A DNA stretch of 64,000 nucleotides from Catenulispora acidiphila DSM 44928 (GTDB lineage: Bacteria; Actinomycetota; Actinomycetes; Streptomycetales; Catenulisporaceae), in NCBI RefSeq assembly GCF_000024025.1, contig NC_013131.1, forward strand, positions 10,396,229-10,460,228, read 5' to 3'. The notes beneath the pieces are model-generated. The model had not been told where the DNA came from. It did not search any database and worked only from the letters and a program-made list of their open reading frames with translations. A program made the position numbers and the translations under genes. Below, one piece after another: positions 701 through 24,868 of this stretch; positions within the stretch are counted from its first letter, which is position 1; each line of letters opens with the position of its first letter.

Positions 701-904
701 TGGGTGTCCTGGCCGGCCTCGTCGGCGTTGCCGCGCCGTCGGGGCCGGAGTCCCCTCGGGCGGATTGGCCCGAGCTGGCGGGCCGCAGGCCAAGCACGCC
801 CGCGCCGGTCGGGGCAAGGCTCGCGCGCAGCGCGACCGCGAAGCGGCCCCGGCCTTGCCGCGTGCCGGAGCGGAGTGTGCTTACCTCAGGTCGTCAGCCG
901 GGCG
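701..904 (-). repeat. 204-bp direct repeat copy 1, leader of the gene starting at 677
   Basis: This stretch matches 2983-3186 over 204 bp with one difference seen by eye (A at 764 versus T in the other copy). It contains the CGGCAA-loop hairpin (712-747) followed by a CCAGGACACC box on the minus strand. Upstream of that are a GCAAGGC/GCCTTGC helix and two small hairpins with GCAG and GAAG loops. Both copies stand just before a minus-strand start codon of unrelated genes, so the repeat behaves as a mobile or copied 5' leader, perhaps with a promoter. The rest of the gap up to 1102 shows nothing recognisable. Confidence 0.85.
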
Positions 905-1102
905 GACCGCCGGGATCGGCCTCAGAGAGGGACGCCGACGAGACGACAGACCACCTGTGCTTGCACGTTGCAATAGGCGTTCAGCGGCGTCAGCACGCCA
1001 TCACGTCCGTCTCGGCGAGGGAATGCTGCGGTGCACCGATGACGGCGACCGACCGGCGGGAGCGGTCCTGCGTACGGGCAGCAAGCCGCTCCCGGCCCGG
1101 CA

Positions 1103-1975
1103 CTACAGTCGCGCCAGTGCGAGCGAGGCGTCCCCGAAGGTCACCGTGTAGCCCCTGCTCGTGCGTTCCGCCTGGGCACCGCGCAGCCCTGCGACGTCGT
1201 CGGTCAGCGCCCTGGCGACGTCCTCGACGCGGGGGTGTTCCTCCCAGCGCAGTGTCCATGCATCGCCATCCCCAGCCAGTTGGCGGGATGTCGCCCGGGT
1301 GAGGGAGCCTCGCGGCTGGTCGGGTCGGTTCAGCGGGTCCTCGAACCACTGCCCGATCGCCCACTGACGTCTCGCATCGATGGCGCTGAACCGAGTGACG
1401 AGCCCGGCCAGCAGCACCCGGGCGTCAGCCGTGGGTTCGGGCAGCTCGGACAGCAAGGTCTTCTCGCTGGCGCTCAACGGGACGTCGATGTCGGCTGCCC
1501 GGATGTAGTCGTGATCGCCGCCGTCGGCCTGACCGAACCGGCCGTTGATGTTTGGAGTGACGACCATGCGGGCGCCGGTGGGGAGGTGGCGGAGCCGAAG
1601 TCCGCGGGTGTGATTGCTCACCGCCTCGAACCGCAGTCCCGGTACCTCGTCGAAGAACTTCGTCTCGGGCCTGGGAACGAGCCACGCCATGACGTTGAGC
1701 TCTGCGCGCGTGATGATCACGAGGTCGTCGTATCGCGGCGAGAGGATCATCGTGTAGCAGGTGAGTGTGGAGACGCCGTTGCGCGACGACAGGGCACTGG
1801 CTGCACCGGAATTCAGCAGCAGCCGAGCCAACAGAGCGCGTAGCTCCAGCTGAGCGGGACTGCACGCGTCGAGCCCGAGGTGCTCTCGGCCGACTCCGGC
1901 CTTGGCTGCCCGGGTGGTCTCGCCCGTGTAGGAACGGCGGACCTTAGCGAGTGTCTTACGGGTGGAATGGGTCAT
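1103..1975 (-). CDS. Hypothetical protein of the mobile element (290 aa)
   Basis: The frame reads from ATG 1975, preceded by AAGGAC at good distance; a longer in-frame extension upstream is low-complexity and is rejected. The N-terminus (MTHSTRKTLAKVRRSYTGE) is basic. No transmembrane segment or known catalytic motif is visible. The middle part (about residues 80-180) is a mixed alpha/beta region with a GFG-like loop (NINGRFGQADGG). I do not recognise the family. It lies between two genes carrying the 204-bp leader repeat but lacks that repeat itself. Confidence 0.6.
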   Translation of the reverse strand: MTHSTRKTLAKVRRSYTGETTRAAKAGVGREHLGLDACSPAQLELRALLARLLLNSGAASALSSRNGVSTLTCYTMILSPRYDDLVIITRAELNVMAWLVPRPETKFFDEVPGLRFEAVSNHTRGLRLRHLPTGARMVVTPNINGRFGQADGGDHDYIRAADIDVPLSASEKTLLSELPEPTADARVLLAGLVTRFSAIDARRQWAIGQWFEDPLNRPDQPRGSLTRATSRQLAGDGDAWTLRWEEHPRVEDVARALTDDVAGLRGAQAERTSRGYTVTFGDASLALARL

Positions 1976-2292
1976 CGCGGGTGTCCTTGGTCTGTGCCTC
2001 CCGGTCGGCACTGATCGAACACGCTGCGGACAACGGCATGCCGAAGAGAACAGGTGGGCGCGCAACACCCTTCTCGCGAGCACGAATGCACCGGGGCATG
2101 TGTCGTACTCGGCAGTCCGGCCACTGTCGGCCGGAAGCAGCCATGCTGCTCACGAAGAACCGTAGATGGCTGGACGTAGCAGCAGTCAAGCGGAATGCCA
2201 GATCAGCCCCAGAGAGTCAGCCGTCTGGCCTACACCATGCTGCCCCCAGCGAGGCGATCTGTCCGGGAACAGGCTGGCCGCGGGACTGGGAT

Positions 2293-2334
2293 GAGCCTGC
2301 GGCTCCGGACTGTCCGGTCCGGAGCCGCAGGCTC
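2293..2334 (-). terminator. Perfect 18-bp stem hairpin after the gene ending at 2344
   Basis: GAGCCTGCGGCTCCGGAC (2293-2310) pairs perfectly with 2317-2334 around a 6-nt loop. It lies 10 bp downstream of the stop of the minus-strand gene 2344-2958, so it probably terminates or protects that transcript. There is no T-run, as is usual in actinobacteria. The remainder of the gap 1976-2292 shows no convincing gene. Confidence 0.6.
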
Positions 2335-2343
2335 CAATCCGAC

Positions 2344-2958
2344 TCACACGGGCAGCGGGATATCCGGCTCTTCGACGGTCTTTACGGTGGCACCGGCCGT
2401 GCGCCACGGCTGGGAGAGCTTGCGCATGAGAAGGGCCTCGTACTCGTCGGCACGGCTACCGTGGACCGTCTCGTATGCCTGCATGTCGAGGACCTCCGCT
2501 GCTCGATCGAAGATGTTGGGAAACCGGCGGTTACCCAGGCGCAGGTAGAGGGTTTCGGCCCCGCCGTTCAGCGGCGCCGTCTGACTGGCGGCGGACAGAA
2601 CCGCAAGCTTCTCGGCGTCGGTGGCCGGGCGCGTATCAGCGCCGGCGGCGACGCGGTCGAGCAGTTCGCGGCAGTGTGTGCGGTACAGCAACTCCGGCCA
2701 GGGGCGGTCACTTGCCGGACGCAGCAGAGAAAAGCTCCCCCACAGTGGACCACGGTCATTTTCGCCGTGGCGCAGTTGGGCAGCTTCGATCTCCTCATCA
2801 GCCCATGCGCACTGGTCGAGTGCTGAATCGATGACATCGGCGATGTCGCGGAATGCCGCGTCCAGCCCAATGAGGCTGGCGGCGAGACGGAGACGGGGAG
2901 CGCGTTCGTCGCACGGCGCGTCCGGTGCGCACAGGCTTTCGTGTTCGAGGATGGTCAT
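2344..2958 (-). CDS. Hypothetical protein of the mobile element (204 aa)
   Basis: The start ATG at 2958 has AGGAGC upstream, and the frame ends at 2344. The product (MTILEHESLCAPDAPCDE...) is acidic and mostly helical, without membrane segments, signal peptide or clear motif; residues about 45-100 are rich in Leu/Arg/Glu. I do not recognise the family. Its leader is the second copy of the 204-bp repeat, so it is probably co-regulated with the gene starting at 677. Confidence 0.55.
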   Translation of the reverse strand: MTILEHESLCAPDAPCDERAPRLRLAASLIGLDAAFRDIADVIDSALDQCAWADEEIEAAQLRHGENDRGPLWGSFSLLRPASDRPWPELLYRTHCRELLDRVAAGADTRPATDAEKLAVLSAASQTAPLNGGAETLYLRLGNRRFPNIFDRAAEVLDMQAYETVHGSRADEYEALLMRKLSQPWRTAGATVKTVEEPDIPLPV

Positions 2959-2982
2959 GGGCGTGCTCCTGACGATGGTCGC

Positions 2983-3186
2983 TGGGTGTCCTGGCCGGCC
3001 TCGTCGGCGTTGCCGCGCCGTCGGGGCCGGAGTCCCCTCGGGCGGTTTGGCCCGAGCTGGCGGGCCGCAGGCCAAGCACGCCCGCGCCGGTCGGGGCAAG
3101 GCTCGCGCGCAGCGCGACCGCGAAGCGGCCCCGGCCTTGCCGCGTGCCGGAGCGGAGTGTGCTTACCTCAGGTCGTCAGCCGGGCG
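2983..3186 (-). repeat. 204-bp direct repeat copy 2, leader of the gene starting at 2958
   Basis: Second copy of the repeat at 701-904, with the same internal CGGCAA-loop hairpin (2994-3029). It ends 25 bp before the ATG of the downstream minus-strand gene. Conservation over 204 bp while the genes on either side differ points to recent duplication or selection on an RNA or DNA structure. Confidence 0.85.
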
Positions 3187-3295
3187 AGCCGCCAGGTTGG
3201 GCTTATGCGCACGGCCGAGAGCCGAGTTAAACCGCCCGGACCACCCTCGGGTGAAATGCATCGCTTCTCTCGACCGTGTCCACGAAGATGGGTCC

Positions 3296-4051
3296 ATGCA
3301 GCAGGAACGAAGTTGGGTGTACGCAGCGTGCACGGTCCGTCTGGCCCCAGATCAGCCGGGCTGCGAAGCCGTTTTCGATCAAGCTCTAACAAACGGCCTT
3401 GCGGCGATCGTGGCGCTTGAGTGGCCAGGCGCTGAGGCCAATGCCAGGGGCCGCGTACGTTCCGCAGCGGAGCTCTTGGACGTCATCTCAGAGCGCGTTC
3501 CGCAGGACGGACAGACAGGCGTTTACCCCATCCCAGACACCAGTATCAGCCAGGGTCTTAATACGCTGGTTGATGTGGCGACGCTGCGCGATGGGGTGAC
3601 GCAGACACAGCAGGTCCGTCATGCTCGCGGTCCAGGACGCCTTGAAGAGCGACACGTCGACGCACTCCGGGCTCTGGATCATCACCGGAGTCTCCGCTCC
3701 CTGAGTGGTGAGGAGTCCGACAGGGTCTGGGATCAAGCACGCGAAGACGATCGTGCCTCCATCTTGCGGGCGGTCGCGTTCCTCGATCTCATCGGTGAAG
3801 ACGAGGCTGCGCGTCGGGCGGTGGATGTGGAGAACCCGAACGCGTATCACCCCAAGCACAATCCGGATGGTCAGGAACTTGAAGAGTGCCCCGTATGCGG
3901 ACTCGATACCTTCTGCATTCAGGGCATTGATGACTACGGGTATGGGTTCGGGTCTGGGCAGTGCCTCGTGTGCGCGTACGTCCGGAGCCGTGACACGGCA
4001 GATGAGATGGCCTTGGACTTCCACATCGCCCGGCTCTCCGCCAAGGACTAG
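3296..4051 (+). CDS. Hypothetical protein with a C-terminal zinc ribbon (251 aa)
   Basis: The reading from ATG 3296 gives 251 residues. Four cysteines in two pairs near the C-terminus (C198/C201 in CPVC and C223/C226 in CLVC, separated by a Gly/Tyr-rich loop) form a probable zinc ribbon. The N-terminal 150 residues are alpha/beta with no catalytic motif that I recognise. The minus-strand frame opposite (3488-4294) lacks any such motif, so the plus strand is preferred. It is one of the few plus-strand genes in the element; its role is unknown. Confidence 0.55.
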   Translation: MQQERSWVYAACTVRLAPDQPGCEAVFDQALTNGLAAIVALEWPGAEANARGRVRSAAELLDVISERVPQDGQTGVYPIPDTSISQGLNTLVDVATLRDGVTQTQQVRHARGPGRLEERHVDALRALDHHRSLRSLSGEESDRVWDQAREDDRASILRAVAFLDLIGEDEAARRAVDVENPNAYHPKHNPDGQELEECPVCGLDTFCIQGIDDYGYGFGSGQCLVCAYVRSRDTADEMALDFHIARLSAKD

Positions 4052-4073
4052 CCCTGCGGGCCGCCGGTGCTGC

Positions 4074-5177
4074 TCAGCTGGGAGGTGTAGTGCCCGCACC
4101 GCCATAGTCGGTGCGCGGAAGGTTGCTGCGGGCGCGGGAAAGATCGTCACACAGCCCGACGATCTTGGTAGCGATCCGCGCGAACTTGGCAAGAGCGCTG
4201 ACGGCTTTCTGCTGCGTTGAGTTGTGCCACTGGGCGCGGCCGTAGTCGTCGTCTGCCTCCGCCAGCCGTCCCAGCTCGTCGATGATTCGTGCAAGAGCGG
4301 TCAGGACGGCGCGGCTGCTCGCAGCGTCGGTGGTGGGTGGTCGCTGGTCCCGCAAGAGCGTGCTGAAGTACCACCCGGATTCCCATACTGCGTAGACCTG
4401 ATGCCCCACCATGAGCGAATAGGGCTTGGCAACCGCCACCTGGAGCTCGGCGACCTTGTCCCGGAAGTCCTGCGCCGCTTCCTCGAAGGAAACGTACCCT
4501 GCGGTCTGGTGCCGCGGTGCCCAGTGTGTACGTGGCCGCTCTGCGGCGGCAGGCACGTGATCGGGCTCCGGTGAGATTTGGCTCGGCTGAATGCCGTTCT
4601 TCCGCAGGCGATAGAGCCGTTGTCGACACCGCGAAGAGCATGTGGAGCGTGGCCGACCCGTGCCGGCGTAGGGCAGAGGGCTGTTGCAGACGAGGCAGCT
4701 TTGGCCGTTCCAAGGATCGTCCGGACGATCCTCGCCCTTCCGCAGAGGTCGAGGGCCGCGCGGTCCGAAGTATCGGATTGCGGCTAGATCACGCAGTTCG
4801 TCAAGGACATCAGGCTGATCATCGTTGCTCCCTGGTGAGCGAGCGTTCCTTAGCATGCGGATCAGGTCAAGTGCGGCGCCTTCCACCGACTTGACCACTT
4901 TGACGGACGTGTTGAAGCGGACTGCGGTTTCCTCATAGGACTTGGGCACGCCGTCGTTGATCCCGTAGAGGTAGCAGGCGACATCAGCTGCGTTTCGGTA
5001 GTTGCCAACAGCAGCGTTGAAGTGCTTGAACGGCTCGGCTAGCTCTGGCCCAGCATGGAGCGCGACCTTTTCCGCGCCGGACGCCTCGGTCAGCAGCGTC
5101 CAGAAGTTGATCGCCGCGGCACCGCTGACAGCGGAGTCGCCCACAGAGTCACGCGGCGTCGTCCGTCGGCGGGTCAC
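4074..5177 (-). CDS. Sigma-region-4-like HTH plus zinc-finger protein (367 aa)
   Basis: A GTG start at 5177 overlaps the stop of the preceding gene (GTGA), implying translational coupling. Residues about 79-111 (SYEETAVRFNTSVKVVKSVE) look like the helix-turn-helix of sigma-70 region 4. Residues 161-184 hold C161, C164, C180 and C184 in a CxxC-x15-CxxxC arrangement followed by a basic stretch (RCRQRLYRLRK), a zinc finger seen in actinobacterial small DNA-binding proteins. The C-terminal third is helical. A DNA-binding regulator is likely; the target is unknown. Confidence 0.6.
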   Translation of the reverse strand: MTRRRTTPRDSVGDSAVSGAAAINFWTLLTEASGAEKVALHAGPELAEPFKHFNAAVGNYRNAADVACYLYGINDGVPKSYEETAVRFNTSVKVVKSVEGAALDLIRMLRNARSPGSNDDQPDVLDELRDLAAIRYFGPRGPRPLRKGEDRPDDPWNGQSCLVCNSPLPYAGTGRPRSTCSSRCRQRLYRLRKNGIQPSQISPEPDHVPAAAERPRTHWAPRHQTAGYVSFEEAAQDFRDKVAELQVAVAKPYSLMVGHQVYAVWESGWYFSTLLRDQRPPTTDAASSRAVLTALARIIDELGRLAEADDDYGRAQWHNSTQQKAVSALAKFARIATKIVGLCDDLSRARSNLPRTDYGGAGTTPPS

Positions 5178-5425
5178 GACTGGTGCTCGATGTCAGTCCT
5201 CGGCACAGACCCATCGTCGCGTCCATGCGGACCAGCCGACAATGTCTCTGGCGATAGCGGCGGCTCGACCTCGTGAAGCCTGGCCAGGCCATCCACAATC
5301 CGGGGAATGTCCTCGGGGTTTGCTCGGTTCAGCACGTCGCGAGCAATGCCACGTAGCAGCCAAGCGCGGATCGTTGCATGCCCGAGCAAAGTAATCGCGC
5401 CAACGATCGGCCACGCGTCGACCAT
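5174..5425 (-). CDS. Small membrane protein upstream of the HTH/zinc-finger gene (83 aa)
   Basis: ATG 5425 has GGAAGG upstream. The N-terminus (VDAWPIVGAITLLGHATIRAW) forms one probable membrane helix; the rest is soluble and charged. The stop overlaps the GTG of the next gene. The frame stays open upstream through a possible leader peptide (start at 5557) and two strong hairpins, so a longer product cannot be excluded. Family not recognised. Confidence 0.5.
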   Translation of the reverse strand: MVDAWPIVGAITLLGHATIRAWLLRGIARDVLNRANPEDIPRIVDGLARLHEVEPPLSPETLSAGPHGRDDGSVPRTDIEHQS

Positions 5426-5453
5426 CAAGAGTCTGCCTTCCTGGGCGTGGAGA

Positions 5454-5557
5454 CGTCGATGGCCCCAGACCGCAGGGTCCGGGGCCATCGACGGAACATG
5501 CGCAGAAACGAAAAAACCCACCAGCAGGCTGGTGGGAATCTCTGCGATTCGGCACAT
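5454..5557 (-). promoter_or_regulatory. Leader with intrinsic terminator and second hairpin, possible attenuator
   Basis: On the minus strand an ATG at 5557 opens a short peptide (MCRIAEIPTSLLVGFFVS). Its PTSLLVGFF codons form a 9-bp hairpin (5517-5536) followed directly by six T (5516-5511), a textbook intrinsic terminator. Next comes an 18-bp near-perfect hairpin (5454-5493), then the ribosome site of the gene at 5425. A terminator inside a short coding leader upstream of a gene suggests attenuation. The rest of the gap to 5769 shows no other gene. Confidence 0.5.
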
Positions 5558-5769
5558 ACTCTTGGCCGAACGACGCCCAGAATACACTCTACGTAGCGGT
5601 GGCGCCACCAGTTGTTTCCGCAGGTCAAGCGGACTGGGTTGACACGTGGGACTTTCGTAACGCTTAACGTCCCTAGGCCCGGCGCCCACCACGAGTCCGT
5701 GGTTCGCGTGCGATACCGCACTAGTCGCGATGCTTGATGGAATCAATGTTCTGCGTAACGCTGAACGCT

Positions 5770-6390
5770 ATGGGGGCAGAACTGACGGGAGCTCTTGCAG
5801 GACTGATTGGGGCGGGTCTCGGTGCCGGCGCCGCGATATGGGGCAGCCTTACGGCGGCGCGCACCCAACTACGACTGAACCAGGCGCAACTTCAAGCGGC
5901 CGTCGCGGCTGAAGAGATCCGGATCGCTCGCGTCGCATACGCGGACTTCCTGCGTGCTGGCATCCAGTTCGAGCTCGCCTGGCGAAGTCTGTTGATCGGC
6001 TTCCGGGAGGGTGCGAGTGCTGATGAGCTGGACCGCTTGTACGCTCGCGTAATCGAGGTCGAGCACAATCGCTGGATGTTCTACTCCGTGGTGCTGTTGG
6101 AGGCCCCGGAATCCGTCGTTGTACTCGCCAGGGAGCTCACAGCCGCGTACGTAGAACTCGACATCGTCGGTGAGGCGGCCCGCCGACGCTTGTCCGCCGA
6201 GAAGGACGGCTCTACCGCACGCTGGCCTGATTTCGACCGGGCTTCGTCCAAGTGTGGTGAACTGACCGCCAAGTTCGCTGTGGGGGCGAAGGCCGAGCGT
6301 GCGGCGGCACGCGATATCGAAGTGGTCGAACCGTCGCAACACACGCGACGACCGCTCCTCGCGCGGTGGCCCGGCCATAGCAATAACTGA
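5770..6390 (+). CDS. Single-pass membrane protein with coiled-coil cytoplasmic region (206 aa)
   Basis: Starting at ATG 5770 the product begins with a glycine-rich hydrophobic helix (LTGALAGLIGAGLGAGAAIW) and continues as a Gln/Ala/Glu-rich amphipathic helix typical of actinobacterial membrane-anchored coiled-coil proteins of unknown function. Upstream in-frame ATGs at 5734 and 5743 are possible. It is transcribed divergently from the gene at 5425. No enzymatic motif is seen. Confidence 0.6.
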   Translation: MGAELTGALAGLIGAGLGAGAAIWGSLTAARTQLRLNQAQLQAAVAAEEIRIARVAYADFLRAGIQFELAWRSLLIGFREGASADELDRLYARVIEVEHNRWMFYSVVLLEAPESVVVLARELTAAYVELDIVGEAARRRLSAEKDGSTARWPDFDRASSKCGELTAKFAVGAKAERAAARDIEVVEPSQHTRRPLLARWPGHSNN

Positions 6391-6462
6391 GCGCAGGTAT
6401 AGAACCCGATCGCGATCGACGCGCGTGTGCCGCCGCCTGTCGCGGCACACGCGCCTGGGGAA

Positions 6463-7539: not shown

Positions 7540-7610
7540 GGTGCTGCTCCAGGCGGTTGGGGAGCCGTGGTGCGGGCCGGGTGGCCTGCTGGCGGGCTCT
7601 GCCAACCGGG

Positions 7611-7680
7611 GCGGGTCCGGGGGCGGGCAACCCCCGGAGAGCGAGCGTGCGAGCGTGGGGTTGCGCGAGCCCCGGCCCGC
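7611..7680 (-). repeat. Structured leader element, copy 1 of 2
   Basis: An outer helix (GCGGGTCCGGGG with CCCCGGCCCGC) encloses an invariant inner helix GCAACCCC/GGGGTTGC and a GAGCGA..GCG segment. The copy at 11815-11873 has a different outer-helix sequence that still pairs, so the fold rather than the sequence seems conserved. It lies 72 bp upstream of the DUF3560 start. Confidence 0.55.
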
Positions 7681-7761
7681 TCTGGTTCCGTAGGCGACCA
7701 GCAGCACCGGCACGGCCGACGGAACTGCCGACGAGCTGCCCGGGTTATCCCGGCCGAGTAG

Positions 7762-11701: not shown

Positions 11702-11732
11702 TGCGGTGCTCCTGGTCTGGTCGCTTGTCCTG

Positions 11733-11772
11733 GGCCGGACCGTGGCGTTGCCGCGCCTTGTCGGTCCGGGCC
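11733..11772 (-). promoter_or_regulatory. CGGCAA-loop leader hairpin before the gene at 11701
   Basis: GGCCGGACCG arms pair around a loop reading CGGCAA on the mRNA strand. Downstream follow CCCAGGACAA and ACCAGGAG boxes, then the GTG start. Confidence 0.6.
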
Positions 11773-13242: not shown

Positions 13243-13272
13243 GGTCGTCCTGCTCTCTGGTCGTTGTCCTGG

Positions 13273-13304
13273 GAGCCTTCGGCCGGCGTTGCCGCGCAGG
13301 CCTC
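13273..13304 (-). promoter_or_regulatory. CGGCAA-loop leader hairpin before the gene at 13242
   Basis: GAGGCCTGCG and CGCCGG..GGCTC arms enclose CGGCAA on the mRNA strand; the stem is weaker than in other copies. CCCAGGACAACGACCAGAG follows and leads into the ribosome site. Confidence 0.5.
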
Positions 13305-13331
13305 AGCTGGAATGCAGAAGATCAGGGCCGT

Positions 13332-14140: not shown

Positions 14141-14170
14141 GGGGTAGTCCTCTGGATGGTTGTCCTGGGA

Positions 14171-14202
14171 CCGGTGGGCACGGTTGCCGTCGTGCGCTCC
14201 GG
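14171..14202 (-). promoter_or_regulatory. CGGCAA-loop leader hairpin before the gene at 14140
   Basis: CCGGAGCGCACG pairs with CGTGCCCACCGG around ACGGCAAC on the mRNA strand. CCCAGGACAACCATCCAGAGGA follows, giving the ribosome site of the ParB-like gene. Confidence 0.6.
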
Positions 14203-14217
14203 CTGGTGGCGGCTGGG

Positions 14218-15221: not shown

Positions 15222-15255
15222 GGCGGTCCTGTTCTCTGGTGGGTTGTCCTGGTGC

Positions 15256-15289
15256 GTGTCGACGCGGCGTTGCCGCGCCGCGCCGACAC
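15256..15289 (-). promoter_or_regulatory. CGGCAA-loop leader hairpin before the gene at 15221
   Basis: GTGTCGGCGCGGC pairs with GCCGCGTCGACAC with one interruption around a GGCAAC loop. ACCAGGACAACCCACCAGAGAACAGGACC follows, in which both conserved boxes and the ribosome site are clear. Confidence 0.65.
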
Positions 15290-15361
15290 GGAGAGGAGGG
15301 CGGAACCCTCGGTGTTCCTGAGCGACCGGGCTCGGGCTGTGCCCGTAGGCCGTTGGTGAGG

Positions 15362-15966: not shown

Positions 15967-16006
15967 GGCGGGATGCTCCTTGATCTCTGGTCGGCGTCCT
16001 GGGTGG

Positions 16007-16043
16007 GCCTGTCCCGGGTGGTTGCCGCCACCTCGGGACAGGC
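16007..16043 (-). promoter_or_regulatory. CGGCAA-loop leader hairpin before the gene at 15966
   Basis: This is the best copy of the leader hairpin: GCCTGTCCCGAGGTGG pairs with CCACCCGGGACAGGC with a single bulge, closing on a CGGCAA hexaloop. CCCAGGACGCCGACCAGAG follows. Confidence 0.7.
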
Positions 16044-16102: not shown

Positions 16103-16549
16103 TCAGAACGGCCGTTCGGCACCGGCGGTGGCGGGAGTGGGCATCGACCACGGGTCCGGGCTCGGGGCGGCGCTCTGCGCGGTGCGGCTGGCCTTGACCG
16201 GCGTGGCGACCGCGAAGCGGAGCGAGACGCCGATCTCCTCGACCTCCAGGTTCAGAGTGGAACGCTTCTCGCCGTTGTCGGTGACCCAGTTGTTCTGGCG
16301 CAGCTTGCCGGTCACGATGACGCGCGAGCCCTTCGACAGCGATTCGGCGACGTTTTCCGCTCCGGCGGACTTCCACACACCGCAGCGGACGTACACCGAG
16401 TCTCCGTCCTTCCACTCGTTCGAGGACTTGTCGAAGACCCGCTCGGTGTGGGCGACCGTGAAGTTGGCGATGCTGCTGCCGTTGTCCAGGAAGCGCAGCG
16501 ACGGGGCGTCGGTGAGGTTGCCGACCAGGGTGATGCTGTTGCCGATCAT
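16103..16549 (-). CDS. ssb: Single-stranded DNA-binding protein
   Basis: The 148-aa product has the SSB OB-fold in residues 1-110 (GNLTDAPSLRFLDNGSSIANF, VRCGVWKSAGAENVAESLSKG, RVIVTGKLRQNNW), then a Ser/Pro/Ala linker. The last residues read GAERPF, so the Pro-Phe end is kept but the usual acidic run (DDDIPF) is nearly lost; docking of partner repair proteins may be altered. It heads a minus-strand operon and is expected to coat single-stranded DNA during replication or transfer of the element. It is separate from the chromosomal SSB, which is not in the window. Confidence 0.92.
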   Translation of the reverse strand: MIGNSITLVGNLTDAPSLRFLDNGSSIANFTVAHTERVFDKSSNEWKDGDSVYVRCGVWKSAGAENVAESLSKGSRVIVTGKLRQNNWVTDNGEKRSTLNLEVEEIGVSLRFAVATPVKASRTAQSAAPSPDPWSMPTPATAGAERPF

Positions 16550-16584
16550 GAGGTTGGTCCTTTGCTCTGGTAGTTCGTCCTGGG

Positions 16585-16647
16585 TGTCGTCCGGGTTGCC
16601 GCCCTTCCGACATCTCTTAATTTACTCTCTTAGCTCGCCTAGCGCAA
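16585..16647 (-). promoter_or_regulatory. Promoter and leader hairpin of the ssb operon
   Basis: On the minus strand -35 TTGCGC (16642-16647), a 17-bp spacer and -10 TAAATT (16619-16624) form a housekeeping-type promoter. The transcript would begin almost directly with the hairpin 16585-16612 (TGTCG/CGACA outer and GGG/CCC inner pairs, CGGCAA loop). Sequence from the -10 to beyond the hairpin is nearly identical to 24806-24845. Confidence 0.7.
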
Positions 16648-16910: not shown

Positions 16911-17011
16911 GTCCCTTCGTCCGCCGGCCACGCGCAGCGAGGCCAATCGAAGCGCACCCGGCGACGCCCCTGGCCGCTCCTCCTCTGCTGCGTGCTCGGG
17001 AAGGACTGCGG

Positions 17012-17635: not shown

Positions 17636-17925
17636 GGCGGGGTGCCTCCGGGGCGCGGCGTGGACGCTCCTGCCGGGCAGGCAGAGGCGGGCCGGCGGTG
17701 CCGGTCGGCTACCGATTCTAGGGCCTTCACCTGGGGTTCTCCTGTCGCAAATCGTGGTCCGTGTGGTGGCGGGTAGGGCGTAGGCTGGTGGGCACGTTCC
17801 GCGTCGGATGAAGAAGCCCCACTCTGGTCGGGCGTCCTGGGCCTTCGCGGGGCCAGGTGAGATGGCGGGTCCCTTGCCGGGGGACCGTGCTAGCCGGTAC
17901 CGCCCCATTGGGGCGGACCCGCCGC

Positions 17926-18750
17926 TCACCGACTACCTCCGGTCCCACAACGTCGACGGCGCCGAGCTGACGAGTCGCGAGGTAGGCCGGTTTCGCTAGT
18001 TCGGATGATCTTTTGACGCCACTCGGCCGCCCAGCGGGCACAGTTGGCCTCAGTTCGGTGGCCGACTCGGCATCCGGGCCGGTATCTGCCCTGGTAGCTC
18101 CATGCGAGGCTATCGGCCGATGCCAGATGACGGCCGTAGATCCCTAAGCCCGCGGTCTTCACTCCGAATCCGTGCAGACGTATCCGCAACGCGGCTACCG
18201 ACTCAACGATCGCTCTGATCTCCCCGGTCCCCTGGCGCCGACACACCGAGCCCAAACCGACCACTGGCTCATGCTCCAGATCGACGCCTGAGCGCGCGAA
18301 CAGATCTACGCAGCGCAGGTAGTCATCGCGCTGCCATCCCTGGATCACCGGCACGATCGGCAGATCCGGCGCGATGTCCCGCAGCCGCAGGTAGTTGTCC
18401 ACGGTGAGCTGCTGGTGGGCCTCGACCGAGAGCCCGGTCCCGACGAATCGCGACCGTCCCACCTGGCCGCCGCCTATGACAACGGGCTCACACATCCAGT
18501 CCATTTGAGCCGCCCATTGGAGCCCGCCGATCTCTTGTACGTAGCGGCGGACGGCGGCGGCGTACTGCTCGGCGGTGATGGTCCACCGGCCGTACTGCTG
18601 GATCTCACTGAATGCGCCGGAGTCCAGGCACCACGGCCCGAGCGCTCGCGGAAGGGTTCGGCGGTGGGCGAGTCGGCGGTGGGAGATGAACAGCGGGATG
18701 TCCGTTGCCGCCAGCCATGCCGGCTGGTGGCATCCGAGGTAGAACCTCAC
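17926..18750 (-). CDS. DpdA-like TGT-fold protein (deazapurine DNA modification family)
   Basis: The 274-aa product resembles the DpdA/queuine tRNA-ribosyltransferase-like family of actinobacterial phages and plasmids: RTLPRALGPWCLDSGAFSE with an aspartate in DSGAF (D43), AAQMDWMCEP at 82-89, VVGLGSVCRR, HGFGVKT at 193-199 and ADSLAWS at 212-218. DpdA inserts a 7-deazaguanine (preQ0-type) base into DNA. The C-terminal metal site seems incomplete (C227, H231, C237). No folE/queD/queE/queC genes for preQ0 are nearby, so the host would have to supply it. Start GTG 18750. DNA modification is inferred from the family, not shown. Confidence 0.65.
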   Translation of the reverse strand: MRFYLGCHQPAWLAATDIPLFISHRRLAHRRTLPRALGPWCLDSGAFSEIQQYGRWTITAEQYAAAVRRYVQEIGGLQWAAQMDWMCEPVVIGGGQVGRSRFVGTGLSVEAHQQLTVDNYLRLRDIAPDLPIVPVIQGWQRDDYLRCVDLFARSGVDLEHEPVVGLGSVCRRQGTGEIRAIVESVAALRIRLHGFGVKTAGLGIYGRHLASADSLAWSYQGRYRPGCRVGHRTEANCARWAAEWRQKIIRTSETGLPRDSSARRRRRCGTGGSR

Positions 18751-18783
18751 CGTTGGCCGCCTCCCTGGTCGCGTCGCGCGACG

Positions 18784-19563
18784 TCAGAGTTTGTCGGTGG
18801 CGCCGACGGGATGAGCGATGGCGATGCGGCGGCGTCGGCGTGGCCGGTCTGTGCTGTCGCCGCGGGCTCGGTCCACCTCGCGCTGCCACTCGCTGAAGCG
18901 TCGGTCTCCTTGGCGGCGTTGGAGGTGAGGGATCTGGTTCGCCGCCATCGCGACCGGTGCCGGACCGTAGGCGGCGAGGAGATCAGATTCTGCCTGCGAG
19001 TGCCATCCGCTGTGCTCGATTTCCGTCTCGGTCGGAAACACGTCGCAGACCCGGTGCCTGTGCAGATCGACGTATCGGTCGTAGATCCCTCCGAGGGAGA
19101 TGATCCACACTGCGTTCGGCGGCCGTTCGGGCTCCAGTATCCGGTCATGGAGCATGACCTCCTTCGTGTACGCGTAGAAGCTGGTGTTGGGCGTGGCGCG
19201 GATGATCCGCAGCCAGGCTCGGGCGTAGGCGGCGGAGTAGAAATCGCCTGCCGCATGGATCCGGACATGGGCGCCGGCGAACTTCGGATGGGACAATTCG
19301 GCAGTCATCGCCTGCTCCCATCCCTCGGGATCTTCGAGGGTGAACAGCAGGTTCCTCACGTGCGCGGCCTTCACGGCCGGGAAGTTGTACGTTCCTGATC
19401 TTGCAAAGCACACCTGGGAACAGACGCCGGCCGCCCTGCATGTGCGGAATGTCGTCCCGTCCGGGAGTCGTGCGGCCAGCGCTGGAATAGTCCAGGACCA
19501 GATGCCGTCTCTCGCGAGGTCGCGGTTGGCGCGGCTGAGCAGCCGCGTGGGCCGCTCAGACAT
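18784..19563 (-). CDS. GP88-family protein with Cys cluster (259 aa)
   Basis: ATG 19563 lies inside the end of the preceding gene (TATGTCTGA). The product matches the mycobacteriophage gene-product-88 pattern: IWSWTIPAL, TCRAAGVCSQVCFARSGTYN, VRIHAAGDFYS and FYAYTKEV. Cysteines 42, 48 and 52 (C-x5-C-x3-C) could hold a metal or Fe-S cluster. It is 33 bp upstream of the DpdA-like gene; I recall the two families occurring together in actinophages, which should be checked. The function of GP88 proteins is not established to my knowledge. Confidence 0.65.
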   Translation of the reverse strand: MSERPTRLLSRANRDLARDGIWSWTIPALAARLPDGTTFRTCRAAGVCSQVCFARSGTYNFPAVKAAHVRNLLFTLEDPEGWEQAMTAELSHPKFAGAHVRIHAAGDFYSAAYARAWLRIIRATPNTSFYAYTKEVMLHDRILEPERPPNAVWIISLGGIYDRYVDLHRHRVCDVFPTETEIEHSGWHSQAESDLLAAYGPAPVAMAANQIPHLQRRQGDRRFSEWQREVDRARGDSTDRPRRRRRIAIAHPVGATDKL

Positions 19564-20329
19564 AACCCGCCCCAACTGGAACCGGGATCGTCTCTCCAGC
19601 GTCATCCGCTGCGATCGGCATGGGCCGGTCGTGCAGAAGGGTGAGGTCGTCGCGGGAGCAGATCCAAGCGAAGTCATCAGGCAGGTCGCCGGGCCGCTTC
19701 AGCAACTCGGGGTTCTCCTCGGCTTCGCGTGTCTCCAACGCGGTGTGCAGGTTCAGATCGTTGTCGACGTAGATGAACAGGCGTTTGCCGCCGATCTCGA
19801 CGATGACGCCCTGGAGCGCGTCGGACTTGGGCTCGTCGAGCTCTTCCAACTCGCTACCGATGGCGGCGCTCGCGGTGAAGTTGATGAGCAGCGCGGCTGG
19901 GTTGGTGATCTCGGGCATGGTGCGGGGCTTTCCTGATCGGGGCTTGCGGCGGGTGAAGAAGCGTCCACGGCGCTCGACGTAGCGGCCGTAGAGGAAGGCT
20001 GCGGCTTCGGCCTGGTCGTGGAAGCCGGAGACGACGGGTTCGGCTGCGGAGGTGCCGGCCGGGCTGTAGTGAACATCCGAGATCGCGGTGTAGTAGTAGC
20101 CGAACCGGATGCGGCCGTCCTCGACGCGGGTCGACTCGATCGCGCCGATGCGGATGCCCTCGTTGTATTTGCCGAAGTAGATCCACGCTCCGCTGCGGGA
20201 GCCCTTCTCAAGGCCGACGCGGAAGCGTGCCCTTTGCTTCGGGGCCGACTCGGTGGCGACCTGAACGCGGTAGGCGCACCAGTCGCGGAAGCTGGGCCGC
20301 TCGACGGCGGACTTGTGGACCGGGCTCAT
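19556..20329 (-). CDS. Hypothetical protein of the DpdA operon (257 aa)
   Basis: ATG 20329 overlaps the stop of the gene before it (ATGA). The N-terminal 130 residues hold aromatic, beta-type sequence (GAWIYFGKYNEGIRIGAIE, RIRFGYYYTAISDVHY). The rest (from MPEITNPAALLINF) has a small alpha/beta domain (VIVEIGGKRLFIYVDNDLNL). An in-frame ATG at the junction with AGGAAAG about 13 nt upstream may start the second part separately. Family unknown. Confidence 0.55.
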   Translation of the reverse strand: MSPVHKSAVERPSFRDWCAYRVQVATESAPKQRARFRVGLEKGSRSGAWIYFGKYNEGIRIGAIESTRVEDGRIRFGYYYTAISDVHYSPAGTSAAEPVVSGFHDQAEAAAFLYGRYVERRGRFFTRRKPRSGKPRTMPEITNPAALLINFTASAAIGSELEELDEPKSDALQGVIVEIGGKRLFIYVDNDLNLHTALETREAEENPELLKRPGDLPDDFAWICSRDDLTLLHDRPMPIAADDAGETIPVPVGAGYV

Positions 20330-21108
20330 CGGGCGCACTCCGTCTCCAGCGCGATCCTGGCGTCGGTGTAGGCGTCCCAGTCCCGCGCGGTCGGGGGTAC
20401 GTCGATGACGGGGACGGCGGCGGGGTCCTCGTCGCGGATCGCCCACAGGGCCGCGCGTGCGAGCCATCGATCGAAGCCAGGCGCGAAACCGGAGTTCGCC
20501 CGGTAAGCGGGAGTGACCAACCCCGACGATTCGTGATACTCGGCAACCTGCAACCGGTCTTCGGCGACCGCGTGCCAGCCGGTCAGCCGGGCCGCACGCG
20601 AGCAGCGGACGATCATCGTGTCGTGCTGGTGCGGCTGCGGGCCGGTCGCGCGCAGGGTCAGCTCTGTCCAGTGCTGGGTGACCAGGTCGCCGCCCAGGTG
20701 CGGCGGTCCCCACCATCCGTGCTCGTGCCGGCGGGACGGGTCAATGGTGCTGATCGAGCGGTGGCGCAAGCAAAAGTCGGCCGGGCTCATGCGCCAGGTC
20801 TGCCCGTCCCGCTGGTACTCGCGGACCGGGGCCGGCTTTCGGGTGGCGGGGCGGAGGTCGACGGCGATGCCTCGGCCGTCGACGCCGAGCAGGACGGCCC
20901 GGTGGTCGTCGGGCCGGTCGATCATCAGAGCCCAGCCGCGTTGGCGGAACGTGCGGACGGGGACGACCTCGGCCGCGCCGATGCCCGCGCGGCTGCGGGC
21001 GGACACGGCTTCGGCGCGCAGGTCCTTCTTGTAGAGCGTCCAGCACACGGTGCGCGCCGTGTAGCCGTGCAGATCAACTGGGGTCGGGGGCGAGGTCATG
21101 TTGCTCAC
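20326..21108 (-). CDS. Hypothetical protein of the DpdA operon (260 aa)
   Basis: GTG 21108 overlaps the preceding stop (GTGA), and its own stop overlaps the next ATG, so translation is coupled on both sides. The product has a DLHGYTARTVCWTLYKKDLRA start, a beta-rich middle with many Trp/His residues (HRSISTIDPSRRHEHGWWGP) and a helical C-terminus. No motif that I can assign to a known enzyme. Confidence 0.6.
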   Translation of the reverse strand: MSNMTSPPTPVDLHGYTARTVCWTLYKKDLRAEAVSARSRAGIGAAEVVPVRTFRQRGWALMIDRPDDHRAVLLGVDGRGIAVDLRPATRKPAPVREYQRDGQTWRMSPADFCLRHRSISTIDPSRRHEHGWWGPPHLGGDLVTQHWTELTLRATGPQPHQHDTMIVRCSRAARLTGWHAVAEDRLQVAEYHESSGLVTPAYRANSGFAPGFDRWLARAALWAIRDEDPAAVPVIDVPPTARDWDAYTDARIALETECAR

Positions 21109-21683
21109 AGGTCGTCCCCGTCCTGCTCGACGGCTTCGGAGCCCGGGAGTTGCTGCCAGATGGTTCCGGTCCAGACCTGCCAGTGTCCGCCGGGGTCGTC
21201 GGCGACCTCGGCGAGGGCTGCGGCGACCGCGGCCGGGACGACCGCTGCCACGCTCAGGCCGGTCTCCTGGGGCGGGATGAACACCCGGATCGCGAGGGTC
21301 AGCAGCGTGCCGCCGTCACGCAAGAACCGGGCCACCGTTTGGCCTTCGGCGACGGCTTGGAGGAGACGTTCGCTGATCTGCCATTCCTCGACCAGCAGGG
21401 CCATCAGCTGACTGCCGGTCACTGGCCGGCCGTGGTGTCGGCACTGGGCGGCGAACTCGTTGACCTTGGCGGGGCTGAAGGATCCAGTGGGGCGGAACGT
21501 CAGGTCACCACCTTCGTCGGTGCCCTCGATCGTGCCGATGTCGTGGCCGCCGAAGCGGACGAGCGCGACGAGCGTCGCGCCGCTCGGAGTCGGCAGAGAC
21601 GACATGGACACGACCTGAGGATGATCGGCGGGGACGAGCAACCCGGTGTGCATCAGGGTGACTGTCTCGGGGCGGGTGGTCAT
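21105..21683 (-). CDS. Hypothetical protein of the DpdA operon (192 aa)
   Basis: ATG 21683 (MTTRPETVTLMHTGLLVPAD) is preceded by AAGGACTCCC. The product combines a beta-rich N-terminal half (TLVALVRFGGHDIGTIEGTD) and a helical, alanine-rich C-terminal half (VAAVVPAAVAAALAEVADD). It is the first gene of a five-gene coupled set ending with the DpdA-like gene. No family recognised. Confidence 0.6.
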   Translation of the reverse strand: MTTRPETVTLMHTGLLVPADHPQVVSMSSLPTPSGATLVALVRFGGHDIGTIEGTDEGGDLTFRPTGSFSPAKVNEFAAQCRHHGRPVTGSQLMALLVEEWQISERLLQAVAEGQTVARFLRDGGTLLTLAIRVFIPPQETGLSVAAVVPAAVAAALAEVADDPGGHWQVWTGTIWQQLPGSEAVEQDGDDL

Positions 21684-21921
21684 GGCGGGAGTCCTTGTGC
21701 GGGGCGCGGCCGGGCCGCGGAAAGTGTTCGGGGAGATGGCGCAGATCGTGCGCCGGAAGCGCGAGGCACGGGACGCGTGGTGCTGCGCAGGGCTCGATGC
21801 CCGTGCGCAGCACGCCGGCCTCGGGGCTGAAGGGTCGGAGCCGTCCGGACACACAGCGTCAGGTCGGACGGTCCGGGTCGGGCAGGCCGGGATGGTCTCC
21901 CGGCCTGCCCTGACGGTCAGG

Positions 21922-23649
21922 TCAGATCTCGTCGGCGTCTTCACAGTCCGGGTCGGGGTCGTCCTCGTCCGAGCCGGGTTCGTCCTGCGACTCGCTCTGT
22001 CCTGTTTCCGGGTCGTCCTGGGCCTCGGCGTCGTCCTCGGGCTCGTCCTCGGCCCGGTCCTCGCCGTCGTCCTCGTTCAGCGTGTCCGCCATGACAGGCG
22101 CGGAGGCGGCTGGATCGTAGGGCCGGTCCTCCATCACGGCCTGCTCGATCGGCGACGGCTTGTAGCCCAGCGCGACCAAGAGTTTCAGCCACTCGGCGGC
22201 CTGCTTGCGCTCGTGCCGGTAGCCCTGAGAGCGATCGGTCCGCCAGAGTCCGTCGCTCATGTTCTTCTCGAAGCCTGCGACCAGCGGCAGGAACGTGAGC
22301 AGAACCAGCCGCTTGGCCGACGCCTTGGCCGTCAGTTTCGCCCAATCGGACGGGGCCTTGGGCTGTCCGAGGAGTTCGGCCACCAACTCGCCGTGACCGC
22401 TGAGAACTCCGTCCTGCGCGGCCGACCACCCGCGCAGGAGGTTGAAGGCGGTGAAGCGGGTGATGGCGGCGGTGTGCTCGGGCGACAGCGAGGTGCGGGC
22501 CATCAGCGAGGCAAGCCACTTGGTTCGCACAGTGCGGGCCGCGCGCCAGTCCTTGTTCCCCTCGATCACCCGCTTGCGCTGCGCTCTCTCCTCCGCCTTC
22601 TTCCGGGCGGCCTCTGCGATCTGTTCCGCGCTGCCCAGCGGCGGCGCGACCGCTGGCGGGGTGAAGGTCTCGCGGTCGATGTGCTTGCAGATCTTCGAGT
22701 CGCGGCAGGCGTAGAACACGCGTGGGGCTCCAGAGCGCTCGAAGACCGCGAGATGGCCGGGGCACTCGGCATGCACTTCGGGTTCTATCCCTCGCCCGGC
22801 CGTCGTCGGCATGGTGGCCAGCCTCACCAGACCGGCCGGAGCATCGTCGAACTCGTACAGCGCCACGCCTGCGGTCTTGTGCTGCTCGCGGATCTCCTCG
22901 CGGGCGGCCTTCTCGGCGCGGTCCTGGCGTTCCCGCTCCATCTGCCAGTCGAACTGATCGTCGCTGAACGCCTCGATGAGGCGAGCGGTCGCCTCGGCGT
23001 CGTCGGAGAACTCGGCCAGTGCGGCAAGCTCGGGCACGCTCCACTGGAACTCGATCACGGCGGCGGCCTTGGCGGCGGCTTCCTGCGTCTCTGCGGACAG
23101 CGTCGCGGCCCGAAGCGCCTGGTTCACCTCCTTGGCCTTGCCGCCGTAGGCACCGGCGAGACGCGTCTTGGTGGCTCCGGCCTCGTGGGCGGCGAACAGC
23201 GCGTTGGCCTCTTCCTGTGGCGTCAGCAGCTTCTTGTGCCGGGAGGTCATCAGCTGGTCGAGGTACTGACCGGCTTCGTCCTGGGCGCGGTCCCCGCTGA
23301 AGAAGCACGGCACGGCAGCAAGATCGGCCTTGATCGCGCCACCCATGCGGCGGTGCCCTTCGAGCACCCGATAGACGCCGGGCGTGGCCGATGCGGTGAT
23401 CTTCAGAGGATCGATGATCCCCTCAGCCTTGATGCTGGCGACGAACGCGGCGTTGAGATCGAGGTCCTTGCGGACATTGCCGGGATGCGCAATCAGCGCG
23501 GCCAGCGGGATCATGACAGCTTCCTGCGGCTGCGGGGTCTCAACAACCCCCTGCTCGGCCCCCTCGCGGGTGAGGACGGCGGCGGTCGCGGTTTCGACGG
23601 GTGTGGCGTCCTCGGCGAGGATTTCCGGCTCGGCGACGGTGATGGTCAT
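21922..23649 (-). CDS. ParB/RepB/Spo0J-family partition-like protein (575 aa)
   Basis: The N-terminal ParB nuclease-like domain (residues about 45-120) includes IPLAALIAHPGNVRKDLDLN and the R-box-like VLEGHRRMGGAIKADLAAVP (GHRR at 98-101). A helical HTH region follows (LAGAYGGKAKEVNQALRAAT). The long middle is Lys/Arg-rich, and the last 55 residues are almost all acidic. At 575 aa it is much longer than chromosomal ParB. No parA lies beside it. It could serve partition, regulation or nicking of the element; the acidic tail is unusual. Confidence 0.75.
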   Translation of the reverse strand: MTITVAEPEILAEDATPVETATAAVLTREGAEQGVVETPQPQEAVMIPLAALIAHPGNVRKDLDLNAAFVASIKAEGIIDPLKITASATPGVYRVLEGHRRMGGAIKADLAAVPCFFSGDRAQDEAGQYLDQLMTSRHKKLLTPQEEANALFAAHEAGATKTRLAGAYGGKAKEVNQALRAATLSAETQEAAAKAAAVIEFQWSVPELAALAEFSDDAEATARLIEAFSDDQFDWQMERERQDRAEKAAREEIREQHKTAGVALYEFDDAPAGLVRLATMPTTAGRGIEPEVHAECPGHLAVFERSGAPRVFYACRDSKICKHIDRETFTPPAVAPPLGSAEQIAEAARKKAEERAQRKRVIEGNKDWRAARTVRTKWLASLMARTSLSPEHTAAITRFTAFNLLRGWSAAQDGVLSGHGELVAELLGQPKAPSDWAKLTAKASAKRLVLLTFLPLVAGFEKNMSDGLWRTDRSQGYRHERKQAAEWLKLLVALGYKPSPIEQAVMEDRPYDPAASAPVMADTLNEDDGEDRAEDEPEDDAEAQDDPETGQSESQDEPGSDEDDPDPDCEDADEI

Positions 23650-23684
23650 GGCGGATACGCCTTCCTGGTTCGTTGTCCTGGGAT

Positions 23685-23719
23685 CGGCCGCGCCGGGGTT
23701 GCCGCCCCGGCGCGAGCCG
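23685..23719 (-). promoter_or_regulatory. CGGCAA-loop leader hairpin before the parB-like gene
   Basis: CGGCTCGCGCCGGGG pairs with CCCCGGCGCGGCCG with a small bulge, closing on a CGGCAA loop. CCCAGGACAACGAACCAGGAAGG follows, so the conserved ACCAGAG box is here ACCAGGA. Confidence 0.65.
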
Positions 23720-23777
23720 TGAAGGTGAAGAGAGAGGGTCCGGCCGGGCCGTGGTCCGGCCGGATGAGAGGGAAGGA

Positions 23778-24767
23778 TCAGACCGACAGCAGGCGGTGAG
23801 CCTCGTGCTTCCGCGTCGTCACCTCGGACGAGGTCAGCACCCGATGTGCCCGAACCACATCGGTCTTCGCGGGCGCGTAGTGGTCCAGGTACTCACCGAT
23901 CGCCTGAACTCCGGCCCACCGGGTTCCCCGGATGTTCGCGTTCGTAGGGGCGTACTCGAACAGGCGGCGCAGGTGCCCCATCCGCTTGGCGTCGTTGCTC
24001 TTGGTGCGCGGTCCGGCGTTCGGCTCCAGCGGCCACAGTTCGTGACACACCTTCTCGAACTCGGCGAGTGTCAGCGTTTCGTTGATCATCCGCTCGGCGG
24101 CCTTCTCGAACTCCTCGACGTACTTGAACATCAAGCCCAGCGCCTTACGGGCCTCGGCGATCTTCTTCTTGGCGCTCTCGGTGTGGCGGATCGAGAAGGA
24201 GGACCGGGCGCGATCGAGCGCAAGGGACTGAGTGTTGGCACAGACGATCCGGATCGGCGTGACGATCAGCTTGTACGCCCCGGTCCCGTCGTGCGAGTTC
24301 AGGCCGGAGATGTACAAGTCGAGCCGATCGGTACCCGCGACCGTCATCGTCTCGGGCAGCCGCATGGTGACGAACACCTGTCGGCCTTCGCGCAGAGATC
24401 CGGCGGTCTCAAAGTGCGCGCCGGAAGCATCCACCAGCGTGTTCATGATCTGGCAGTTCTCTTCGTTCTGAACCGGGGTGTAGTCCGATCCGACGATGCC
24501 GAGATAGTCAGTACGCCGGGTCTTCGGGTTGGTCCGGACCGTCATGAACCTGTCCGGGGAGTCCACGGTAGTGACACCGTGCTCGGTGATCTCCTTGCCC
24601 GCTACGGGGATCTTGCGGACGTTCCATCCGTCCAGGAATGCCGTGGTCAGGGCCTCTTCAGCCGTCATCGCGTCGCGGGTGACGGTTCCGAGCCGGTGCC
24701 ATGCGTTCTCGCGAGCGCTGGCGAACGCGGTCGTACCGTCGCGGAACCGTTCCAACAGATGAGCCAT
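23778..24767 (-). CDS. DUF932 phage/plasmid-like protein (329 aa)
   Basis: The sequence matches the DUF932 family (phage/plasmid-like protein): ENAWHRLGTVTRDAMTAEEA near the start, YLGIVGSDYTPVQNEE, ETAGSLREGRQVFVTMRLP, LYISGLNSHDGTGAYKLIVT and RIVCANTQSLAL. Members occur on plasmids, phages and ICEs and have no proven role; some are suspected of replication or anti-restriction functions. It heads the second main operon of the element and shares its promoter type with ssb. Confidence 0.85.
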   Translation of the reverse strand: MAHLLERFRDGTTAFASARENAWHRLGTVTRDAMTAEEALTTAFLDGWNVRKIPVAGKEITEHGVTTVDSPDRFMTVRTNPKTRRTDYLGIVGSDYTPVQNEENCQIMNTLVDASGAHFETAGSLREGRQVFVTMRLPETMTVAGTDRLDLYISGLNSHDGTGAYKLIVTPIRIVCANTQSLALDRARSSFSIRHTESAKKKIAEARKALGLMFKYVEEFEKAAERMINETLTLAEFEKVCHELWPLEPNAGPRTKSNDAKRMGHLRRLFEYAPTNANIRGTRWAGVQAIGEYLDHYAPAKTDVVRAHRVLTSSEVTTRKHEAHRLLSV

Positions 24768-24805
24768 GTTCCGTGCTGCCTTCCTCTGGTCTATCTCTCC
24801 TGGGT

Positions 24806-24868
24806 TGTCGTCCGGGTTGCCGCCCTTCCGACAGCTCTTAATTTACTCTTCTGGAGTGCGGGAGTCAA
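24806..24868 (-). promoter_or_regulatory. Promoter and leader hairpin of the DUF932-parB operon
   Basis: On the minus strand -35 TTGACT (24863-24868), a 17-bp spacer and -10 TAAATT (24840-24845) precede the hairpin 24806-24833, with the same loop and stems as at 16585-16612. The box CCCAGGAGAG and ACCAGAGG lead into the ribosome site of the ATG at 24767. Confidence 0.75.

Follow-up and report, generated by a model that had tools for sequence, protein, structure and literature searches.

A hairpin leader with an element-specific loop and box, repeated in front of genes of conjugative-type elements in Streptomycetales

Leaders in the Catenulispora acidiphila window

The chromosome of Catenulispora acidiphila DSM 44928, a single-contig genome of 10,467,782 bases, contains a conjugative-type element in which a short hairpin leader recurs in front of many genes, among them those for a DUF932 protein, a ParB-like protein and a single-strand DNA-binding protein (SSB). 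The window, i.e., the whole stretch of DNA analysed, comprises the 64,000 nucleotides from 10396229 to 10460228. An earlier reading of the letters alone (the original prediction) had listed ten GC-rich hairpins closing on a CGGCAA loop; hairpins with this loop are present at all ten places, every one on the minus strand and in sense orientation with respect to the gene that follows (Table 1). Under a strict rule, requiring a stem of at least 3 bp that closes CGGCAA and CCAGG 8–35 nt onward, the 64 kb yield nine sites, all minus; in first-order Markov copies of the window the expectation is 0.09 (maximum 1 over 300 copies). The remaining site, 14184, misses the rule solely through an A.C mismatch closing the loop. 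In such a placement, CGGCAA far outnumbers every other loop (9 occurrences, with 3 for the runner-up). A looser pattern, CGGCAA-N4-22-CCAGGA, gives 91 matches genome-wide versus 72 for its reversed control and includes all ten window sites.

Table 1. Leaders, their promoters and annotated leader-bearing genes (window coordinates; boxes are listed in the order of the message)
Site	Feature	Position	Strand	Loop	Boxes and remarks	Start codon and gene
728	leader hairpin	713..748	minus	CGGCAA 728-733	CCAGGACACC 703-712	GTG 677
3010	leader hairpin	2995..3030	minus	3010-3015	2985-2994	ATG 2958, open reading frame of 204 aa
11748	leader hairpin	11735..11769	minus	11748-11753	CCAGGACAAG 11724-11733; ACCAGAC	GTG 11701, 233 aa
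13289	leader hairpin	13274..13308	minus	13289-13294	13263-13272; 13255-13261	ATG 13242, 137 aa
14184	leader hairpin	14170..14204	minus	14184-14189	14159-14168; TCCAGAG; A.C loop-closing mismatch	ATG 14140, 155 aa
15270	leader hairpin	15255..15290	minus	15270-15275	15243-15252; 15234-15240; 15-bp stem	ATG 15221, 175 aa
16022	leader hairpin	16007..16043	minus	16022-16027	15993-16002; 15985-15991; one bulged A	ATG 15966, 102 aa
16596	promoter-linked leader hairpin	16585..16612	minus		16574-16583; 16565-16571; TGTCG-GAA-GGG-CGGCAA-CCC-GGA-CGACA	16549, SSB gene
23699	leader hairpin	23685..23719	minus	23699-23704	23672-23681; ACCAGGA; one bulged T	23649, ParB-like gene
24817	promoter-linked leader hairpin	24806..24833	minus		ACCAGAG 24784-24790; near-copy of the hairpin at 16596	24767, DUF932 gene
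16596	sigma-70-like promoter	16619..16647	minus		TTGCGC-N17-TAAATT; -10 at -12..-7 of hairpin base
24817	sigma-70-like promoter	24840..24868	minus		TTGACT-N17-TAAATT; -10 at -12..-7 of hairpin base
16596	SSB, leader-bearing	16103..16549	minus
23699	ParB-like protein, leader-bearing	21922..23649	minus			575 aa
24817	DUF932 protein (TIGR03299), leader-bearing	23778..24767	minus

The unit is built in a constant order: stem, loop CGGCAA, a linker of 0–4 nt, a CCAGGA-type box, in most cases followed by one of the ACCAGAG type, then a Shine-Dalgarno-like stretch and the start codon. Window stems measure 11–15 bp, frequently interrupted by a single bulge or internal loop, and the distance from loop start to start codon is held within narrow limits (49, 52, 52, 52, 54, 55, 55, 56, 57 and 61 nt). 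The boxes had been quoted as CCAGGAC and ACCAGAG; a CCAGGA-type box does occur at the sites, and uniformity does not hold. The CCAGGACAAC box is exact at 13289, 14184, 15270 and 23699 and variant at the remaining sites; ACCAGAG is exact at 13289, 15270, 16022, 16596 and 24817, varies at three further sites (Table 1) and is absent at 728 and 3010. A single recent duplication gave rise to sites 728 and 3010 (140 and 63 identical bases in two blocks); the near-identical stretches 713-960 and 2995-3240 comprise the leader plus its upstream flank and precede unrelated genes. Since the hairpins at 16596 and 24817 are almost identical as well, about eight independent stems are left. At 17822-17856 (minus), CCAGGACGCCCGACCAGAG boxes occur with no CGGCAA loop in front (22 bits and E 0.008 with R1, a search model seeded from the window), perhaps a decayed leader preceding the gene around 17.0–17.8 kb.

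At two of the ten sites, those of the SSB and DUF932 genes, a dedicated sigma-70-like promoter places the predicted transcription start at the base of the hairpin; given the position of the -10 hexamer, the hairpin would open the transcript. No such promoter was found at the other eight window sites, and most copies are promoterless and situated between same-strand genes, in agreement with the original description of the leaders as mostly operon-internal. The placement of the leader is alike with and without a promoter. Some internal sites (in the window, 16022 and 23699; in three of the Streptomyces stretches described below, 24103 of L236, 15015 of L228 and 5731 of L232) have a second strong, unconserved hairpin that separates the leader from the gene upstream. 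This hairpin may act as a U-less terminator or as a 3′ protector, and was rejected as a part of the motif because it is present at some sites only (mean z -1.2 in the window, -1.6 at Streptomyces internal copies).

Selection on the hairpin fold

That stems differ strongly with pairing kept had been taken as a sign of a selected fold, and this interpretation is borne out. Across the eight distinct window stems, native hairpins average -22.7 kcal/mol versus -13.0 kcal/mol for arm-swapped chimeras, and in 20,000 arm-swap permutations the native pairing was matched about once in 10,000 (p about 1e-4); with 23 stems from all elements, p is about 5e-5. When the window hairpins are joined with those of a related element in another genome of the family (G012, see below), both sides change in four of the five loop-proximal pairs of the resulting 12 hairpins. 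Their covariation score amounts to 0.503 versus 0.111 in shuffles, none of 500 reaching it, and a slid partner yields at most 0.17. Eight Streptomyces stems closing (A/G)GUGGCA score 0.490 versus 0.136 in shuffles (again 0/500). The fold of the leader hairpin is under selection. RNAfold predicts an unpaired loop (p 0.8–1.0) at nine of the ten window sites, 24817 having a competing fold; no complementarity suggestive of a loop-box pseudoknot was noticed by eye.

Related leaders and the genes they precede

A relative of the ParB-like protein, 40% identical, is encoded in G012, a genome of the same family and another genus, in which a 47.5-kb contig carries four leaders, preceding the ParB-like gene and three other genes. 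The loop is CGGCAT in all four, the shared boxes are GCCCCGAAGAACACCAACC, GCCCCAAGGAAAACCAACC, GCCCCGACAAACCTCAACC and TCCCCAAAGGCACCTGACC, and the code of this element can be written CGGCAT + CCCCGAAGAACACCAACC; the loop-to-start distance is 52–60 nt. The signal becomes significant because the box is required: four sites are then found versus 0.03 from permuted loops, and without the box the plain CGGCAT hairpin count is weak (5 vs 2.5). Searched against 14 genomes of the family, R1 returned, besides the ten window sites, noise with the exception of G012 (E 0.01).

A search with the DUF932 protein led to linear plasmids of Streptomyces, on which hairpins occupy the equivalent position upstream of DUF932, ParB-like and SSB genes. 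Their loops are AGUGGCA or GGUGGCA in one group and UGGCA/UUGGCC in another; these dialects are missed by R1 and were found by reading upstream of the DUF932, ParB and SSB homologues. In 11 Streptomyces sequence stretches, 45 hairpins with a stem of at least 5 bp close (A/G)GTGGCA (19 permuted loops average 1.74), and 41 of the 45 are followed, 42–64 nt past loop start, by a start codon with a Shine-Dalgarno-like stretch (permuted loops average 0.47), a control that is not fully independent of discovery since part of the set (L179, L181, L183 and L233) served to find the loop; a pattern hit led to L228-L232, and continuing along the same plasmid to L236. The box here is CCGAAnACrCACC. On the 179-kb plasmid NZ_CP108771, 19 such hairpins occur, 18 of them preceding a start, and all lie at most 12.4 kb from the left end or at most 35.2 kb from the right end, with none between. 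Promoter-linked copies, with a TATAGT-like -10 just upstream, and internal copies stand side by side on Streptomyces plasmids and have loop and box in common, so that the leader is independent of promoters in this genus too. The DUF932 gene lies about 1–3 kb from a linear plasmid end in NZ_CP109080, NZ_CP109471, NZ_CP109216, NZ_CP109119, NZ_CP108445, NZ_CP107984 and NZ_CP108771, which makes the tagged genes end-proximal. Other Streptomyces plasmids, L106 (952, 2059 and 12324) and L180 (809 and 1922), contain promoter-linked hairpin leaders with other loops (e.g., CCGACUA) and similar boxes (GCCGAACCCATCAACC), and represent further dialects.

The loop and boxes originally put forward as a general signature are consequently the dialect of a single element, given CGGCAT in G012 and (A/G)GUGGCA in Streptomyces plasmids. 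Searches with fixed patterns sampled the prevalence of the leader. A strict AGTGGCA pattern occurs in six of 392 genomes of the order, with the hairpin preceding an in-range start codon in five; in one of these five (L186/L234) the open reading frame is shorter than 60 aa and fails a stricter start-codon rule. The strict window pattern gave 20 matches in GTDB genome contigs, of which the 15 inspected for sequence and fold, mostly from unrelated phyla, resembled chance. A pattern of the same kind gave none in viral contigs, and CGGCAT and AGTGGCA patterns there met chance or phage hairpins of another kind; the leader therefore does not look phage-borne. No such leader was found in Pimelobacter plasmid upstream regions.

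A TrwC/MOBF relaxase of 1390 aa is encoded past the left edge of the window, on the strand that also carries the leader-bearing genes (L001:10457-14629, minus). Together with the nature of the tagged genes (DUF932, ParB-like, SSB), the nearby relaxase suggests, as far as gene content can tell, a gene set for post-transfer establishment. A glutamyl/glutaminyl-tRNA synthetase family protein is encoded beyond the same edge and on the same strand (L001:9012-10427, minus). Within the window, 17926-18750 and 18784-19677 encode a DpdA-type (deoxypurine-in-DNA) protein adjoining a GP88 protein, possibly a DNA-modification module; the DpdA protein shares about 50% identity with mycobacteriophage homologues. 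A Swt1-like HEPN protein encoded at 25235-26296, adjacent to the DUF932 end of the cluster, weakly matches the candidate defence family PDC-M34B. No tRNA-gene repeat was found as an attachment site.

Reading of the leader and its alternatives

Free arms with retained pairing, a conserved loop and box, a fixed distance to the start codon, sense orientation and independence of promoters indicate an RNA signal at the start of the message. Unrelated genes of one element carry almost the same loop and box, and between elements both change together, from CGGCAA + CCAGGACAAC...ACCAGAG in the window to (A/G)GUGGCA + CCGAAnACrCACC in Streptomyces. This joint change favours a trans-acting reader, which is probably encoded by the element because the code is element-specific. 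The original prediction had allowed for either a protein or a small RNA reading the loop; an antisense small RNA is the less likely of the two, since the plus strand of the window contains no exact antisense copy of the box. The reading we prefer, at a probability of roughly 0.55, is a cis-acting RNA leader recognized by a trans-acting, probably element-encoded RNA-binding protein that would control translation initiation and/or mRNA stability. The leader of about 55–60 nt would then consist of a freely varying stem, an exposed fixed loop, a single-stranded box, the Shine-Dalgarno region and the start codon, and may mark a regulon of establishment-type genes on conjugative plasmids and integrated conjugative elements of Streptomycetales. 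The protein would bind the loop plus box of each mRNA and thereby set translation initiation and/or stability of all tagged genes jointly, which might, for instance, be held down in a settled host and released when the element enters a new cell.

Several observations weigh against this reading. Predicted folds leave the box and Shine-Dalgarno region unpaired only in part, and the leader alone therefore does not reveal the direction of an effect on translation. Neither a reader protein nor a shared reader gene was found in the stretches read; nor is any gene common to all leader-bearing stretches examined, not every element having been read whole. A search of G012 at E <= 1e-20 found no DUF932, and the ParB-like protein is unmatched in the stretches read from GUGGCA-type plasmids. 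Finally, some Streptomyces plasmids (L106, L180) carry hairpin leaders with loops lacking GGC(A), so the boundary of the family is soft.

A less likely explanation, which still deserves some weight, is that the hairpin caps the 5′ end of the mRNA, generated by transcription start or by intercistronic cleavage, and blocks 5′-dependent RNases as a stabiliser or processing element; the reader would then be a host RNase, or there would be none dedicated. Promoter-linked copies do begin at the predicted transcription start, and some internal copies (16022, 23699 and several in Streptomyces) follow another strong hairpin, as expected of cleavage between the two. A cap, however, requires neither a fixed loop nor a box, yet both are conserved within elements and change between them; the second hairpin is not general, as the z values above indicate, and the upstream sequence showed no conserved motif for cleavage. 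Phage coat-protein operators and boxB/nut sites also combine a free stem with a fixed loop and protein read-out, leading to repression or antitermination, but are single- or few-copy and have other loops, whereas the leader occurs in many copies. The resemblance of a fixed-loop hairpin plus single-stranded box to the boxB/boxA layout nevertheless invites the idea of a nut-, put- or LoaP-like signal, at which a loop- and box-binding factor modifies RNA polymerase for read-through of terminators in long operons (some of the intercistronic hairpins could be U-less terminators), or of a conditional attenuator. We consider this improbable: antitermination does not need a separate copy for each tagged cistron at a fixed distance from its start codon, and a non-exhaustive Pfam scan of window proteins gave no NusG-type domain.

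A DNA operator, an ordinary terminator and a single-stranded DNA promoter are less probable still. Inverted repeats near promoters and GC-rich intergenic hairpins are common, and two window copies sit directly at a promoter, which is compatible with a repressor-bound double-stranded DNA operator or an ordinary terminator. The arm sequence of an operator should nonetheless be conserved, whereas the leader arms vary and only pairing is kept; an intrinsic terminator calls for a GC-rich hairpin followed by a U run, whereas a C-rich, CCAGGAC-type sequence follows at all ten sites, and constitutive termination directly behind the gene's own promoter, as in two window copies, would silence the gene. 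Least probable of all is a single-stranded DNA promoter of the Frpo type, or another single-stranded DNA signal active during conjugative entry. Leading-region-like genes (SSB, ParB-like, DUF932) with hairpins repeated in front of them recall the Frpo/ssi hairpins reported before leading-region genes such as ssb (PMC11541004). In Frpo, however, the promoter with its -35 and -10 elements lies inside the stem of the transferred strand, whereas the leader stems are GC-rich, unconserved and contain neither element; promoters, where present, are ordinary ones upstream of the hairpin (two window copies), and the fixed start-codon distance and the box beside the ribosome site indicate RNA.

With respect to known systems, the claim that no described family has these features stands for sequence and structure, as far as Rfam and open-access full text were searched, and falls for the arrangement, which has precedents (PMC3203893, PMC8708921). 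In Rfam release 15, no leader reached the gathering threshold in the window or in L178, L179, L155, L106, L236, L228, L229 and L232, and none in window positions 1-26000 matched with E <= 1. Covariation is present, leaders occur outside the window and neither an Rfam family nor a terminator was matched, the points on which the original prediction could have foundered. The nearest precedents for the arrangement are SAS/ESAS and EGeRS1. The former are repeats of cluster K mycobacteriophages, of unknown function (Pope et al. 2011, PMC3203893; PMC12699233); like the leader, they recur within a single mobile genome immediately before many start codons, on unrelated genes, about half with an imperfect inverted repeat upstream, and their consensus differs by subcluster. 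SAS, however, is a conserved 13-nt GGGATAGGAGCCC beside the start codon, to which the leader boxes (CCAGGACAAC/ACCAGAG or CCGAAnACrCACC) are unrelated, and the sequence before all ten window start codons differs from it; ESAS has conserved 17-nt arms around a variable spacer, whereas the leader has arms that differ by site with pairing retained, and a fixed loop. EGeRS1 of the pLS20 family, a proposed coordinator of the establishment regulon, of unknown mechanism (Val-Calvo et al. 2021, PMC8708921), is likewise a highly structured non-coding repeat preceding establishment operons of conjugative plasmids. It spans 400–600 bp with several inverted repeats and blocks read-through, in contrast to the single hairpin of about 60 nt that precedes single genes in Streptomycetales. 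ANTAR-target RNAs of actinobacteria are likewise hexaloop hairpins in mRNA leaders, and are read by a protein in trans, as is proposed for the leader; they consist of two tandem hairpins with A1 and G4 in each hexaloop (A1xxG4xx; PMC8164766), in contrast to the single hairpin with CGGCAA, CGGCAU or (A/G)GUGGCA.

Little is known, to our knowledge, of how actinomycete conjugative elements switch on their establishment genes. As a tentative extension, which we rate well below the reading of the leader itself, an undescribed and widespread system may exist in which every conjugative element of actinobacteria encodes an RNA-binding master regulator specific to that element's loop/box code, and the tagged establishment genes all carry the leader. 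If so, the leader on up to about 20 establishment genes per plasmid would constitute a post-transcriptional counterpart of zygotic induction, and differing loop codes would contribute to compatibility or immunity among elements sharing a host. Should a protein read the leaders, up to about twenty genes of a mobile element would form one regulon at the RNA level. A short RNA tag with an element-specific loop makes such regulons definable from sequence alone and offers a handle toward their regulator, and the leader may also serve as a portable part for synthetic biology in Streptomyces.

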